Source of the DNA: Aureispira sp. CCB-E
Lineage (GTDB): Bacteria; Bacteroidota; Bacteroidia; Chitinophagales; Saprospiraceae
Direction of reading: 5' to 3'
Assembly (NCBI RefSeq): GCF_031326345.1
Contig: NZ_CP133671.1
Coordinates: forward strand, 3,410,001 to 3,474,000
Length of the DNA: 64,000 nucleotides
Notes under the pieces: generated by a model
What the model saw: only the letters and a program-made list of their open reading frames with translations
What the model was told of the DNA's origin: nothing
Database searches by the model: none
Made by a program: the position numbers and the translations under genes
In this document: one piece after another, positions 33,529 to 39,149 of the stretch
How the letters are laid out: each line of letters begins with the position of its first letter
Position numbering within the stretch: the first letter of the stretch is position 1

Positions 33529-33954
33529 ATGGAAATCCATTACTCTATCAAGCAATTGGGAAAAAAACACCCCATCATTGATAAAGCCACGCTTTCAATA
33601 GAACTTCTCGAAACAAAAACTACCTTTCGTTCCTTGTTAACAGCAATTGTCCAGCAACAGGTACGAGCTTATAACCTTCAAAAAACAACTCCTATTGTTC
33701 TCAACATTTTGAGTACGAAACAACTTAATCAAGCTAGCCAAGAAGGGAAAATTAGTTTTGGTGACACTGAAAATACAACGATTGCTCAAGAGGAAGCAGC
33801 TATAAAAACTGCTTTAGAAGCTTTTGAAGATGGTTTATTCGCTGTATTTCTAAATGATGATCCCATTGAGTCATTAGAGCAAATCGTAGAACTCAACCAA
33901 GACAGTGTTTTTACGTTTATTCGCCTGACATTCTTAGCGGGGAGCATTTGGTAA
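33529..33954 (+). CDS. Small protein with MoaD/ThiS-like (beta-grasp) features, partner of the DUF4132 gene
   Basis: The protein has 141 residues, with no signal peptide or membrane segment. The N-terminus reads as a beta-hairpin then helix (ATLSIELLETKTTFRSLLTA). The C-terminus (FAVFLNDDPIESLEQIVEL then DSVFTFIRLTFLAG) looks like the last strands of ubiquitin-like MoaD/ThiS proteins, with the pattern 'vNg..v...d..L..gs.Vtf....lAG'. Unlike MoaD and ThiS it ends LAGSIW rather than in Gly-Gly, and about 50 residues are inserted in the middle. I recall similar small proteins beside DUF4132 genes in other phyla, but this is from memory. It lies 89 bp upstream of the DUF4132 gene. The fold is an inference. 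Confidence 0.75.
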   Translation: MEIHYSIKQLGKKHPIIDKATLSIELLETKTTFRSLLTAIVQQQVRAYNLQKTTPIVLNILSTKQLNQASQEGKISFGDTENTTIAQEEAAIKTALEAFEDGLFAVFLNDDPIESLEQIVELNQDSVFTFIRLTFLAGSIW

Positions 33955-34006
33955 ACCTTTATTCAATTATAAGCAGCAACAATCATTCAGAAAAAAATTA
34001 TACAAT

Positions 34007-34039
34007 TACGCAATATGAGCGTAGCTAAACACCCAATTT
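34007..34039. repeat. Degenerate copy of the dispersed repeat inside a probable operon
   Basis: 'acgcaatatgagcgtagctaaacac' just before the ATG at 34044 echoes the family core GCGTAGCTAAC. If genuine, it sits in the short spacer between the two genes of the DUF4132 unit. Confidence 0.35.
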
Positions 34040-34043
34040 AACA

Positions 34044-37000
34044 ATGGAAAACCAAGTAGATTTACAAACAAACTATATCAACGAAAAGTGCAAAAATGCT
34101 TGCAAACAATTAAGTAAGCATTACTCTTCGGAAAAAGGTTTATTATTAAAATTGAAACGAGCCTTAGGTTCCTCTGAAACCAAAGTAGTTGAAGTAGCAA
34201 GTTTGTTGGGGAATTCAACCGTCAAGTTGTCTAAAAACGCTTTAGAAATGGCTTTAATATTGGTGAACGGTTTTCCTGAATTAAGATCAAACCAACGCAA
34301 TAGTTACTATTGGATTTATCAAGAAACAGTTGATTTATTTTCAAAGCGCTATGCTAAATTTAATGAGTTATATAAGAATGAGGATTTGTGGTGTGCCGAA
34401 TATGAAGCGGTATTAGAATATTTTTATGGCAAAGAACGTGTAAAGTACATTCAACAAGCATGGCATAAAATCCCTGAATTAGCTTACCAAAGTGGGTATT
34501 ATAGACGATCTTTTCGTGCGCCTCATTTAACTTACACAACAAGAGTCAATCAACTGAACTTCTTAATACAACTCAACATAGAGTTGTCGTACAATTTGGA
34601 CATGGAAACGTACATCATCAACGACCATGCTTTGTACACTTATGGAAGCAATTGGAAGGCACATGTATGGGCTGCTGCGATTGATGCAGGAGATGAAGCT
34701 ATATTTCAGTTATTATTGGATATTGTCTATCAACGACATCCAAAAGGAAAAGTAAGTCGGCAAATTATCAAGGCTTTATTATTATCTACCAAAGAAGAAG
34801 CTTGGAAGGCTGTTAAAGATTTGTTGCTGAGTGCACAACGCCAAGAAGGATTGAGACAAACGATATTAGAATGTTTGGATGAAACTTCTTTAGGAGCCAT
34901 GAAGTACTTAATAGAGGTAATCTTAGAGCATAATTTAACAAGATTTTCGTCGGTTGTAAGAGCAGTAGATACGTGGGCTGGATTAGGTTGGGAAGGAGCC
35001 AAGCAAAGTACTGTAAAGCGTTTTTTGGAAGCAGGAAGCAACTATTTGAACAATCCAGAGTTGATTCCCAATGCTATCAAAGACAAAGATAATACAGAGG
35101 TGTATATGGCTTTGTGGGCGCAAGGCGTGTTAGACGTTGAGCAGTGTTACCCTTTTATTCAATATTTGTGGGAAAAAGGAACGATAGAAAAACGCTGCTT
35201 GGCTTTGTATTTTGCAAACCAAACTCAAGTTGGTAAACTAGAATTGGAATTTGCAGAGGAGGCACTGAAGGAAGAAAATCTGAAGTTGTTGTATTGGGGA
35301 TTAAGGGCGTTTAATTCCTATACCTTTAATGATCAATATTTGGTTTCTAATGCTCGTGGTTTACAAATTTTTAGAAATATAGAAGGGCAGTTGGAACGAA
35401 TTCCCAAAAAGGGGAAAAGTCTTTCTAACATGGTATTTTCTTGGTTAAGTGTTGAGATTCATCCTTCGATGGCATATAAAGCAATGCTAAAATTGATTGA
35501 TGCGACCAAAGAAGAGGATGTACGGTTAATTTTACCCCATTTTTCTAAAATGTCTGTGGCTGATCGAGAGCAGGTGACTCAGATTATATTGCCTACGTAT
35601 TATCCTTATTATAACAATGATAATAAAAAGAATAAGGGAGTGTTAACACCATTTCAGCGAGAGTTTGCATTTACTATTCTAACCGATAGGGGGCAATTAA
35701 TTCGAGACACAGGAATGAATGCTTTGAAAAATGCAGAGCTAAACGATGAAGAGGTACAGCAATTCGAATTGTTGTTAAAACGAAAAAGTGCGGCAACCCG
35801 AAAAAGTGTGATTCAGTTAATTCTAAAAAAAGACAAGCCGCAAATCATTGCTAGTACAGAGCGTTTGGTAGCCTCGAAGTCAATTGATCAACGTTTGGCT
35901 GGATTGGATATTTTGAACCAAGTATACACAGACGAAACCTTAAAAGATTGGACGGTTACTACGGCTCAAAAATACCAAGAACGCCCCACATTAACAGAAG
36001 CAGAATCAATTTTGCTGCAAAATATTGTCAATACACAAGAAACAAGACAGGAGTACACTTGGGAAAATGGTCTTGGTTTATACGACCCATTAGTGAAAAC
36101 AGCTGCTGTTCAACCAAAAAAGCCAAGTGAAGGAGAGTATGTGGAACGTACTAAGAAAAATCCATTAGGATTGAGTATGCCTGCAAAAAAGATAGAAAAT
36201 GCGTTGAAAGAACTACACGATCTAGTTCAAAAATACCAAGACTACGAGTACGAGGTACAGCATTGGGGAGGACAGCGAGAGGTAATCGTACTGGGGAATC
36301 AGTTTAGACAGATTTCAAACGATTTGGGAGAAGAGGCAACAAGAGAAGAACATATTCAGAATTATCCGCTATCCGAAGTTTGGTTAAAATGGTATGAAGA
36401 TGCTAAGTTGACCCCTTGTGATTTATTTTTATTAAATCAAAATAAGAACGTACAAATCATTCAAACTAAGTCAAAAGTACAGAAACAGTTTGAGTGTTAT
36501 ACCTATTACCCCAATATCCCTAAAATAGGAACTTATTATTGGCAAAATCCAATTTATAAGATATTGGAGTTATTGGTTTACGCCTTTCCCTACCAAGAGA
36601 AAATGGCTTTTTTGAAAGGTCTGATAGCTCAATTAATGGCTGTGGTGCCTAAAGGTGAAATTGATAAGGCAGTAATAGAAAAGAATCGTTGGCAAACGAA
36701 TGTAAGAACTTGGAGAGATTTAGTTGCATTTTCAGTTCCTTATAATGCTTATAAAAATAATAGTATAGCATTTTCGGACGAAGCGTTTAAATCTTATTGG
36801 AAGATGGAACATTGGTGCAAATCAACATTGCCCAAAGAAGCTGAGGAGGCTGATTATCTATTACCTCAATTGATTGATGTAGCTAGAGCTTACGAATTGA
36901 ATTTGATTACTATAGATGAGCTATATCATAGAGTATTGAAACCTGATGCTATTCGATTGTTGACACAAAGAAACAAGCATCCACAAGCATTTAACTACTT

Positions 37001-39149
37001 AGAACGTTTTCCTTTTTTAGCCGATGTTTTGAAAAAATGCCGAGATCGAATTTTGGAAATTGAGTTGGCTAGGGGAGATAGCTCTACGCTCGTTACTCCG
37101 TTGGCACAAAGTTTATCAGAAATTTACGGCATTCATAATTTTGTTCAAATTTTTAAAGCATTGGGAAAAGAGAGTTTGAACAGGGGGTATGTTTGGAGTG
37201 GCTCGGATTATAGTAAAAAGCAAATATTGAGTGAACTTCTGAAAAGTTGTAAACCGCTCAAAACAGAAACTCAACAGGACTTTAATGAGTTGGTGAAAGA
37301 GGCAAAATTATCAGATAAACGTTTGATAGAGGCGGCGGTTTATGCCCAACAATGGATTCCTTTTGTTAGTACTTACTTGAAGTGGAAAGGATTGGACTCG
37401 GCTATTTGGTGGTTGCACGCGCATACAAATGCTTATCATACGGCTGAAACAGAAACAGAGATTGCAAAATATTCCAAAGTTCAAGTAACTGATTTTAAGG
37501 ATGGGGCAGTAGACACTGAGTGGTTCAAAGCAGCGTATAAAAATATGGGGAAAGCCAAATGGAAAGTCCTGTACGATGCGGCAAAATATATTTCTGATGG
37601 GAGAGGGCATAAACGAGCGCAATTGTATGCCGATGTAATTTTAGGCAACACAAAGATTAAAGAAGTAACACAACGTGTCAAGGAGAAGCGAAACCAAGAC
37701 TATTTGCGGGTGTATGGTTTGGTTCCATTGAGTAGAGCGAATCGAGAAAAAGATTTGCTTAAACGGTATCAGTACTTGCAGCAATTTAAGAAAGAGAGCA
37801 AGCAGTTTGGTTCGCAACGTCAAGCAAGTGAAGGTTTAGCAGTACGGATTGCAATGGATAATTTAGCTAGAACGGCAGGATATAGCGATCCTATTCGATT
37901 GACTTGGGCAATGGAGGCTGCCGAGGCACATCAAATTATGGAGAAAGCTAAAAGGTTAACTTTTGGTGCTGTTGAAATTTATTTAACGATTGATGAGTTG
38001 GGTAAATCGTCTATTGTTTGTGAAAAACAAGGCAAAAAATTAAATGCTATACCTGCCAAACTACGAAAAGAGAAAGCAGTTGTGGAATTAAAAGCGTTTA
38101 ATAAAACACTTCGAAACCAATATACCCGTACCCGTAAAAGCCTAGAAGAAGCTATGGTCAATGGGGATGCGTTTACAACCTCAGAAATACAAAATTTGCT
38201 ACAACATCCTGTGGTAGAACCGATGCTAAAAAAACTAGTGCTCAAAAGCAACAACCAACTAGGTTTTGCTACAACAGAAGGGCTTAAAAGTGTCCATAAT
38301 AAGAAGTATGAATGGGGAGAAACCGTATGGATTGCTCATTGTTCAGATCTTTATCAAGATGGAGATTGGTCTGCGTACCAGCGTTATTGTTTTGATGAAA
38401 AAATAAAGCAACCTTTTAAGCAGATATTTAGAGAGCTTTATTTGGCAACGCCCGATGAATTGAAAGAGAGAACTATTTCTCGTCGATATGCAGGGCATCA
38501 AGTTCAACCTAAAAAAACAGTTGCTCTTTTAAAAACTAGAGGGTGGACGGTTGATTATGAAGAAGGCTTGCAAAAAGTTTATCACAAGGAGGGGATTATT
38601 GCCAAAATGTATGCAATGGCAGACTGGTTCTCGCCTGCGGATGTTGAAAGCCCTACTTTAGAAACAGTGGAGTTTTTTAATCGAAAAACATACAAGCCTG
38701 TTGCCTTTGAAGATTTAGAACCTAGATTGTTTAGCGAAGTGATGCGGGATATTGATTTAGTGGTCAGTGTGGCACATGTTGGAGGGGTAGACCCAGAGGC
38801 AAGCCATTCAACAATTGAAATGAGAGCCGTCTTGGTAGAGGAAACAGCTCGACTGTTCAAATTGAAGAATGTTAGCACTCAAAAACACCATGTTTACATA
38901 GATGGTACTATGGGACGCTATACGGTGCATTTAGGAAGTGCTGTGTGTCATAAGATACCAGGACGCTATCTTTCTATTTTACCTGTTCATTCTCAGCATC
39001 GTGGTCGCTTATTTTTGCCTTTTGTAGACGACGATCCTCGTTCTGCTGAGTTAATGTCAAAGGTTTTGTTATTGGCTAAAGATGATAAAATACAAGATCC
39101 AACAGTATTAAGCCAAATTTATGATAAAGTAGAAAATACATCTTTGTAG
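34044..39149 (+). CDS. Giant DUF4132 (MolR-type) protein
   Basis: The protein has 1701 residues, with no signal peptide or obvious membrane helix, so it is cytoplasmic. The first 1000 residues are helical and look like HEAT/armadillo-type solenoid repeats (EEAWKAVKDLLLSAQRQEGL, TIEKRCLALYFANQTQVGKL). Residues from about 1280 on match the DUF4132 and adjoining C-terminal region of MolR-like proteins, with RVYGLVPLSRANREKDLLKR, FGAVEIYLTIDELGKSSI, GHQVQPKKTVALLKTRGW and RYLSILPVHSQHRGRLFLPF. E. coli MolR belongs to this family, but its biochemical role is not known. Other DUF4132 loci often include MoxR ATPases and VWA proteins; none are here. It follows a small beta-grasp-like gene and ends in its own terminator. 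Confidence 0.85.
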   Translation: MENQVDLQTNYINEKCKNACKQLSKHYSSEKGLLLKLKRALGSSETKVVEVASLLGNSTVKLSKNALEMALILVNGFPELRSNQRNSYYWIYQETVDLFSKRYAKFNELYKNEDLWCAEYEAVLEYFYGKERVKYIQQAWHKIPELAYQSGYYRRSFRAPHLTYTTRVNQLNFLIQLNIELSYNLDMETYIINDHALYTYGSNWKAHVWAAAIDAGDEAIFQLLLDIVYQRHPKGKVSRQIIKALLLSTKEEAWKAVKDLLLSAQRQEGLRQTILECLDETSLGAMKYLIEVILEHNLTRFSSVVRAVDTWAGLGWEGAKQSTVKRFLEAGSNYLNNPELIPNAIKDKDNTEVYMALWAQGVLDVEQCYPFIQYLWEKGTIEKRCLALYFANQTQVGKLELEFAEEALKEENLKLLYWGLRAFNSYTFNDQYLVSNARGLQIFRNIEGQLERIPKKGKSLSNMVFSWLSVEIHPSMAYKAMLKLIDATKEEDVRLILPHFSKMSVADREQVTQIILPTYYPYYNNDNKKNKGVLTPFQREFAFTILTDRGQLIRDTGMNALKNAELNDEEVQQFELLLKRKSAATRKSVIQLILKKDKPQIIASTERLVASKSIDQRLAGLDILNQVYTDETLKDWTVTTAQKYQERPTLTEAESILLQNIVNTQETRQEYTWENGLGLYDPLVKTAAVQPKKPSEGEYVERTKKNPLGLSMPAKKIENALKELHDLVQKYQDYEYEVQHWGGQREVIVLGNQFRQISNDLGEEATREEHIQNYPLSEVWLKWYEDAKLTPCDLFLLNQNKNVQIIQTKSKVQKQFECYTYYPNIPKIGTYYWQNPIYKILELLVYAFPYQEKMAFLKGLIAQLMAVVPKGEIDKAVIEKNRWQTNVRTWRDLVAFSVPYNAYKNNSIAFSDEAFKSYWKMEHWCKSTLPKEAEEADYLLPQLIDVARAYELNLITIDELYHRVLKPDAIRLLTQRNKHPQAFNYLERFPFLADVLKKCRDRILEIELARGDSSTLVTPLAQSLSEIYGIHNFVQIFKALGKESLNRGYVWSGSDYSKKQILSELLKSCKPLKTETQQDFNELVKEAKLSDKRLIEAAVYAQQWIPFVSTYLKWKGLDSAIWWLHAHTNAYHTAETETEIAKYSKVQVTDFKDGAVDTEWFKAAYKNMGKAKWKVLYDAAKYISDGRGHKRAQLYADVILGNTKIKEVTQRVKEKRNQDYLRVYGLVPLSRANREKDLLKRYQYLQQFKKESKQFGSQRQASEGLAVRIAMDNLARTAGYSDPIRLTWAMEAAEAHQIMEKAKRLTFGAVEIYLTIDELGKSSIVCEKQGKKLNAIPAKLRKEKAVVELKAFNKTLRNQYTRTRKSLEEAMVNGDAFTTSEIQNLLQHPVVEPMLKKLVLKSNNQLGFATTEGLKSVHNKKYEWGETVWIAHCSDLYQDGDWSAYQRYCFDEKIKQPFKQIFRELYLATPDELKERTISRRYAGHQVQPKKTVALLKTRGWTVDYEEGLQKVYHKEGIIAKMYAMADWFSPADVESPTLETVEFFNRKTYKPVAFEDLEPRLFSEVMRDIDLVVSVAHVGGVDPEASHSTIEMRAVLVEETARLFKLKNVSTQKHHVYIDGTMGRYTVHLGSAVCHKIPGRYLSILPVHSQHRGRLFLPFVDDDPRSAELMSKVLLLAKDDKIQDPTVLSQIYDKVENTSL

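Follow-up and report, generated by a model that had tools for sequence, protein, structure and literature searches.

We analyzed a 64,000-nucleotide stretch of the genome of Aureispira sp. CCB-E (the window) that contains two adjacent genes on the forward strand, one encoding a 141-residue small protein and the other a 1701-residue giant protein with a DUF4132 domain (Table 1). Here, we describe how the two are linked and how the small protein relates to ubiquitin-like (Ubl) proteins. Open reading frame (ORF) calls and Pfam bore out the coordinates of both genes and the DUF4132 domain as described in an initial annotation of the sequence. The spacer between the genes measures 89 nt. The DUF5724, DUF4132, and DUF7737 regions of the giant are all well over the Pfam cut-offs, and the small protein is under every Pfam and NCBIfam cut-off. 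Its C-terminal end reads FIRLTFLAGSIW. The initial annotation had noted the missing terminal Gly-Gly and the LAGSIW end, and this is true of the window copy and of its branch of the family (W branch), though many relatives end in Gly-Gly. Genomes and loci other than those of the window are referred to by handles beginning with G and L, respectively.

Table 1. Features of the small gene and the giant gene in the window.
Feature	Position	Strand	Evidence
Predicted MoaD/ThiS/Urm1-like protein, 141 aa, tail FLAGSIW (W-tail branch)	33529..33954	+	ORF, family alignments A1-A3, profile match to MoaD/ThiS
Codons A-G-S-I-W of the small protein; G138-S139 replace the Gly-Gly of relatives, then I-W	33937..33951	+	Alignments
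Partner, 1701 aa, DUF5724-DUF4132-DUF7737	34044..39149	+	Pfam
DUF5724 region, giant residues 91-1290	34314..37913	+	Pfam
DUF4132 domain, giant residues 1330-1501	38031..38546	+	Pfam, 166 bits
DUF7737 domain, giant residues 1591-1692; tracks the small protein	38814..39119	+	Pfam, 118 bits
Ser1644 codon; site is Cys in the partners of 41/41 scored Gly-Gly pairs; YLCIVP elsewhere, YLSILP here	38973..38975	+	Alignments, pair scoring

Pairing of the small protein with DUF7737

The order sample comprised 396 genomes, of which 28, including the window genome, matched the profile of the small-protein family; in the window genome, the search found a single small protein and a single DUF4132 protein. 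Matches were almost always full length (the exception among the 28 is G027, where the gene was found in pieces only), and the small ORF is a real gene and not a chance ORF. Using tblastn, matches to the family were found in records of Deinococcus, Bacteroides (Bacteroides finegoldii), Nonomuraea, and Novosphingobium. The earliest distant members recovered have Gly-Gly ends and lie beside ORFs reading as DUF4132 proteins, and for G040 a profile bore this out. The next annotated gene after the small gene is the DUF4132 giant in the records of Deinococcus and Bacteroides; in those of Nonomuraea and Novosphingobium, where the region is unannotated, a DUF7737 open frame follows the small gene and overlaps it as a stop-to-stop frame.

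A linkage of the small gene to the DUF4132 family across genomes, as envisaged in the initial annotation, was found in a more specific form. Within the order sample, 25 of 30 family hits (the second G027 piece excluded) have a DUF4132 hit no more than 6 kb away on their contig. Four of the other five are in genomes with DUF4132 on a different contig, and the fifth is the fragmented gene of G027, a genome without DUF4132. Forty-three genomes of this sample carry DUF4132, 31 of them together with DUF7737. Because the small protein is present in 27 of these 31 genomes versus 0 of the 12 genomes with DUF4132 but without DUF7737, its link is to DUF7737 and not to DUF4132 at large. The four DUF7737 genomes without the small protein are G014 and G232 (partners cut or short), G052 (partner broken), and G116. 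DUF7737 was also found in further samples, namely in 12 of 395 genomes as well as in 15 of 296 and 25 of 241, the latter two overlapping the first sample. Altogether, 94 DUF7737 proteins were scored, and 70 of them form a pair, defined by a small gene that is on the strand of the DUF7737 gene and no more than 3 kb from it. The pairing is conserved across four phyla.

These counts bear on the trivial explanation that the small ORF is unrelated to Ubl proteins and that its neighbourhood is incidental. Single-sequence profile matches, which are under all cut-offs, would fit such an artefact. However, an incidental neighbourhood is strongly contradicted by both the DUF7737 link and the 70 pairs, and the conservation in four phyla together with the tight correlation of tail and Cys described below makes this explanation highly improbable.

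No third gene is common to all loci: among 316 neighbour ORFs at 20 loci, the small and the large protein were each found at 17, and the next cluster at 4. The E1 neighbour described below came to light only through the search for ThiF-family genes. Scans of viral_contigs with two family profiles (A2, A4) revealed no relative, and neither a Gly-Gly small protein nor the Nonomuraea DUF7737 region had a tblastn match in phages.

Co-loss of the Gly-Gly tail and a DUF7737 cysteine

The C-terminal tail of the small protein correlates with a single Cys in the YLCIVP motif of DUF7737. Among the 70 pairs, 41 combine Gly-Gly with Cys, 28 have another tail and no Cys, one has another tail with Cys, and none has Gly-Gly without Cys; accordingly, the tail is Gly-Gly in 41 of the 42 scored pairs with a Cys-type DUF7737. 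Members with Gly-Gly as their very last residues occur in Bacteroidota, Actinomycetota, Alphaproteobacteria, and Deinococcota. The tails of the pairs without Cys end in Trp in 24 of 28 cases, and the Cys site is occupied by S, N, G, A, Y, F, M, or H. DUF7737 proteins without a nearby small gene number 17 with Cys and 7 without. Four of the 41 Gly-Gly pairs, those of Deinococcus, have a giant partner of at least 1500 aa, and the combination of Gly-Gly and Cys also occurs alongside DUF5724. Five pairs from outside the scoring fit as well, four with Gly-Gly and Cys (G221, G182, G192, G162 C100) and one with a W tail and Ser (G410).

The last 560 residues of the partners comprise 56 conserved columns, of which 35 are identical in 29 of 29 Cys-type partners. 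Solely in the Cys column is this residue missing from 14 of 14 W-branch partners (L152 is in neither group). The W branch has thus kept the pair and the rest of the DUF4132-DUF7737 core. The pairing, its specificity for DUF7737, and the co-loss of tail and Cys are established by these comparisons, and the state with Gly-Gly and Cys is probably the ancestral one.

Excluded from the scoring were L161 (a copy of the L159 plasmid region from another Acetobacter), L009 (the window locus in another record), and the short windows L040-L068 save L043 and L048, which are mostly repeats of counted loci. L043 was scored as unpaired, its small protein (L039, tail FLTGLL) being on the same contig at a different locus. 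At L214 and L222, one small gene each stands against two neighbouring partners, so that the 41 Gly-Gly pairs represent 39 small genes. These two loci are tandem DUF4132-DUF7737 arrays in which partners outnumber small genes, suggesting that a small protein may be shared by several of them.

A possible E1-activated carrier

The resemblance of the small protein to MoaD/ThiS-type proteins, proposed in the initial annotation, was examined by aligning profiles with hhalign. An alignment of 36 small proteins (set A3) against 28 ThiS/MoaD-type proteins drawn from relatives gave a score of 27.7 and a probability of 52% over 38 C-terminal columns reaching the Gly-Gly. This score was equalled by none of 200 column shuffles (best 17.7) and by none of 200 shuffles preserving the last ten columns (best 23.2), and the best of 19 small decoy families reached 17.9. 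The Deinococcus ortholog, DR_A0165, has a published structure model that resembles MOCS2A, SAMP1, and MoaD (PMC9650054). Sequence profiles and model together support that the small protein is MoaD/ThiS/Urm1-like, and the proposed likeness holds to this extent, although it stays below the Pfam cut-offs for ThiS and Urm1. The beta-grasp fold suggested in the initial annotation is a candidate on these grounds, the AlphaFold2 models described below being of low confidence. Some of the other entries to which the DR_A0165 model was likened are presumably Urm1-like.

An E1-like (MoeB/ThiF-like) gene lies right after the DUF7737 gene and on the same strand at five Gly-Gly loci (G250, G238, G752, G1201, G162), and starts within ~30 nt of its end or overlaps it. 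All five operon E1s share the motif C-x-x-x-G-[VIL], whose Cys we take to be the E1 active-site Cys; the motif is also found at 12 of 20 other ThiF-family loci examined. The operon E1s are under every NCBIfam equivalog cut-off (four tested). They do not form one clade in a tree, which, at weak support, suggests that they were repeatedly recruited; given this split, we make no case for a single dedicated family of E1s. A profile of four operon E1s detected no further neighbour E1 at the other listed loci within the available downstream DNA. In 52 genomes, comprising 40 of the Gly-Gly type, some of which carry both types, and 12 chosen ones of the W type, ThiF-family matches were present in 50 and absent from G619 (W type) and G217 (69% complete). 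The window genome has one ThiF-family gene, which is located elsewhere than at the pair, and no E1-like gene is among the eight genes flanking the pair.

Two of the three-gene operons have additional features. Near that of G238, there is a second, stop-interrupted E1-like fragment (L072:1477-1881) whose sequence very closely resembles that of the intact E1. That of G752 (L139:8891-11308) adjoins a YhcG-type nuclease gene and a phage-type integrase gene, which hints at a mobile island.

In Deinococcus radiodurans, the pair corresponds to drA0165-drA0166, which encode the small protein and a DUF5724-DUF4132-DUF7737 giant and have kept both Gly-Gly and Cys. We infer that the genes at L121 (D. radiodurans isolate DRR11) are drA0165 and drA0166, because a thioredoxin gene precedes them and the radiation/desiccation response motif (RDRM) matches. 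The motif is found with its exact 17 bases at L121:9906-9922, 64-80 nt upstream of the start codon (9986). In the literature, an RDRM is listed upstream of drA0165, and DRA0166-V5 rises after mitomycin C in an IrrE-dependent manner (PMC8533742); furthermore, deletion of DR_A0165 increases catalase activity and katA mRNA (PMC9650054). The latter paper states that DR_A0165 is without an RDRM and that the protein occurs in Deinococcus only. The two papers thus conflict on the RDRM, which is present in L121, and the family is not confined to Deinococcus, as it has relatives in other phyla.

Based on these data, we favour, with moderate confidence, a reading in which the small protein is a Ubl carrier that an E1 activates and that is probably loaded on the DUF7737 Cys, with the window branch as a probable non-covalent descendant. 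The two genes would form a dedicated pair, in which a Ubl protein is matched with a large enzyme or scaffold of the DUF4132-DUF7737 type. The ancestral small protein probably ended in Gly-Gly, and an E1-like (MoeB/ThiF-like) enzyme, encoded adjacently or probably in trans, would activate its terminal glycine. The activated carrier might then react with, or be passed to, the conserved Cys of YLCIVP in thioester-type chemistry, in a step that could be a protein modification or a sulfur or acyl carrier step. The window branch would have lost both Gly-Gly and Cys and kept the rest of the core. Its small protein, presumably of the same fold, would most likely be a non-covalent subunit whose usually Trp-ended tail is docked on the giant. 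A carrier or modification role, as the initial annotation had put forward, is plausible for the Gly-Gly relatives, with an adjacent E1-like gene at five of their loci. Because Gly-Gly and the partner Cys are both missing in the window branch, the role of an adaptor, also raised there, or of a subunit is the likelier one for the window copy.

A rival explanation is a sulfur carrier, in which a thiocarboxylate formed by the MoeB/ThiF-like enzyme would give sulfur to a DUF4132-DUF7737 product with the Cys as relay. It is in line with the profile match pointing to MoaD/ThiS, with the MoeB/ThiF-like nature of the adjacent E1s, and with the binding of DR_A0165 and the thioredoxin DR_A0164 in pull-downs (PMC9650054). 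However, a search that was not systematic found no rhodanese, cysteine desulfurase, or cofactor gene among nine Pfam-scanned neighbours or the eight window flanks, and molybdate-related genes such as moeA and moeB showed no differential expression alongside the Deinococcus operon (PMC8533742). We consider a sulfur carrier distinctly improbable.

Alternatively, the pair could be purely structural in all lineages. The small protein would then be a non-covalent subunit whose tail packs on the YLCIVP strand, with Gly-Gly and Cys covarying as interface neighbours without any chemistry. The W branch, which has neither Gly-Gly nor Cys but still keeps the pair, the core, and a stereotyped, mostly Trp-ended tail, fits this explanation well. 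Yet it leaves unexplained why E1-like genes lie right behind the pair at five loci and why Gly-Gly is placed exactly at the stop codon in four phyla, and we regard it as rather unlikely.

A number of observations weigh against the preferred reading of an E1-activated carrier. The sole pair with another tail and Cys, L221, has a small protein ending in GV (LVGV). Seventeen of 59 Cys proteins are without a small gene within 3 kb; several of these 17 have one elsewhere in the genome (e.g. G010, G217, G152, G171), the others not having been searched genome-wide. The draft genome G116 has a Cys partner, and no small protein was found in it. In a quick, midpoint-rooted tree of 90 partners, the Cys and the tail each require at least 2 changes. 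The Cys changes can be read as the W branch (31 proteins, beside the Deinococcus giants) and Acetobacter, and the tail changes as the W branch and L221. The support of the W branch in the careful tree is 91/95, just below the starred level. Since the paired proteins without Cys form one branch, the correlation of tail and Cys is essentially a real co-loss that occurred once or twice, and not dozens of times as the 28 pairs might suggest. On the two Acetobacter plasmids with a Cys-less partner, no small-protein match was found, the chromosomes not being part of the search.

Further points of this kind concern the homology and the enzymes. The smaller set A2 scored 25.3, and 2 of 200 tail-kept shuffles were as high. 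Profiles of MoaD only or ThiS only gave probabilities of ~8% or less, and the Gly-Gly subset alone gave a probability of 1.9 compared to a best of 2.5 among 60 shuffles. The Pfam families ThiS and Urm1 matched only at E ~0.06-0.1 with one member each, with unrelated families scoring better. Searches of the PDB with the A2, A3, and A4 profiles yielded nothing significant, and the Urm1 match (E 0.78) came fifth, after unrelated chains. With single-sequence input, AlphaFold2 reached a predicted local distance difference test (pLDDT) value of 42 for the small protein and of 35 for the last 162 residues of the giant, i.e. low confidence. A profile of DUF4132-DUF7737 did not match any of the solved chains. 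The E1 neighbour occurs at five loci only, and the copy of G1201 is short (194 aa). Finally, the consulted sections of the thioredoxin pull-down work show no conjugate of DR_A0165 (PMC9650054).

No biochemistry was found for DUF4132, DUF5724, or DUF7737. The linked Ubl protein, the one candidate catalytic Cys, and the E1-like neighbour would provide a testable reaction, which could be checked directly in D. radiodurans, a laboratory organism amenable to genetics in which the orthologous operon is induced by damage. The branch without Gly-Gly and Cys serves as a natural control.

Relation to known systems and genomic context

The MoaD/ThiS/Urm1/SAMP carriers with their MoeB/ThiF/UbaA E1s resemble the system described here in the C-terminal part, the many Gly-Gly ends, and the E1-like neighbour at five loci. 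In contrast, the small protein is larger (~130-141 aa) with an apparent middle insert, is under the Pfam cut-offs for ThiS and Urm1, is paired with DUF7737, and is without Gly-Gly in the window branch. Bacterial Ubl/E1/E2/JAB operons (Iyer et al. 2006, PMC1779556) likewise combine a Ubl gene with an E1-like gene. Bil and CBASS Cap2/Cap3 are systems of this kind. No E2 or JAB gene was seen among the nine Pfam-scanned neighbour genes or the eight window flanks in a search that was not systematic, and the DUF7737 Cys would take the position of the E2. It is conceivable, if somewhat short of probable, that the Gly-Gly relatives constitute a compact, unrecognised Ubl pathway (E1-like enzyme, Ubl protein, and a DUF7737 Cys replacing the E2) that takes part in the DNA-damage response in some species, and that the window branch lost the chemistry and keeps the Ubl protein as a structural subunit. 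An E2-like fold for DUF7737, suggested by its HLGS...YLCIVP pattern, was dropped for want of evidence; what we take to be the order of E2 elements does not match this pattern.

A described counterpart is the DR_A0165 (SEP068184)/DRA0166 operon, which is orthologous to the window pair and differs from it in the retained Gly-Gly and Cys and in its DdrO/IrrE control. Two papers handle drA0165 and drA0166 as separate genes and not as a Ubl system (PMC8533742, PMC9650054), and the literature on DUF4132 includes PMC9334617 besides the former. The notion of an undescribed two-gene system is therefore only partly tenable. Each of the Deinococcus genes had already been studied singly, but no paper presenting the pair as a Ubl system was found among those listed by the searches, in a coverage that lay mostly outside subscription papers and wholly outside preprints.

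E. coli YehI shares DUF4132 and is encoded beside yehL (MoxR-type ATPase) and yehP (VWA). A 26-kb stretch of the E. coli yeh region gave no match to the small-protein or the DUF7737 profile; YehK, considered as a hidden small protein, had no profile match either. Unlike such a Yeh-type locus, the eight genes flanking the window pair (27.9-45.3 kb) include no MoxR ATPase or VWA gene; they encode cytochrome c assembly, Glu dehydrogenase, 3-hydroxyacyl-CoA dehydrogenase, fatty acid hydroxylase, TspO, GNAT, ABC transporter, and FtsK proteins. PADLOC returned no match.

The small protein is patchily distributed within the genus: of 8 genomes from the genus, the window genome included, 2 gave a match, and so did one more genome of the same species. 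The pair hence looks accessory. A record of Aureispira sp. CCB-QB1 contains a small protein 100% identical to the window copy. Several DUF4132 copies per genome were seen in G182 (8) and G197 (5), with 3 and 4 of them, respectively, sharing one contig; G197, despite its five copies, is without DUF7737.

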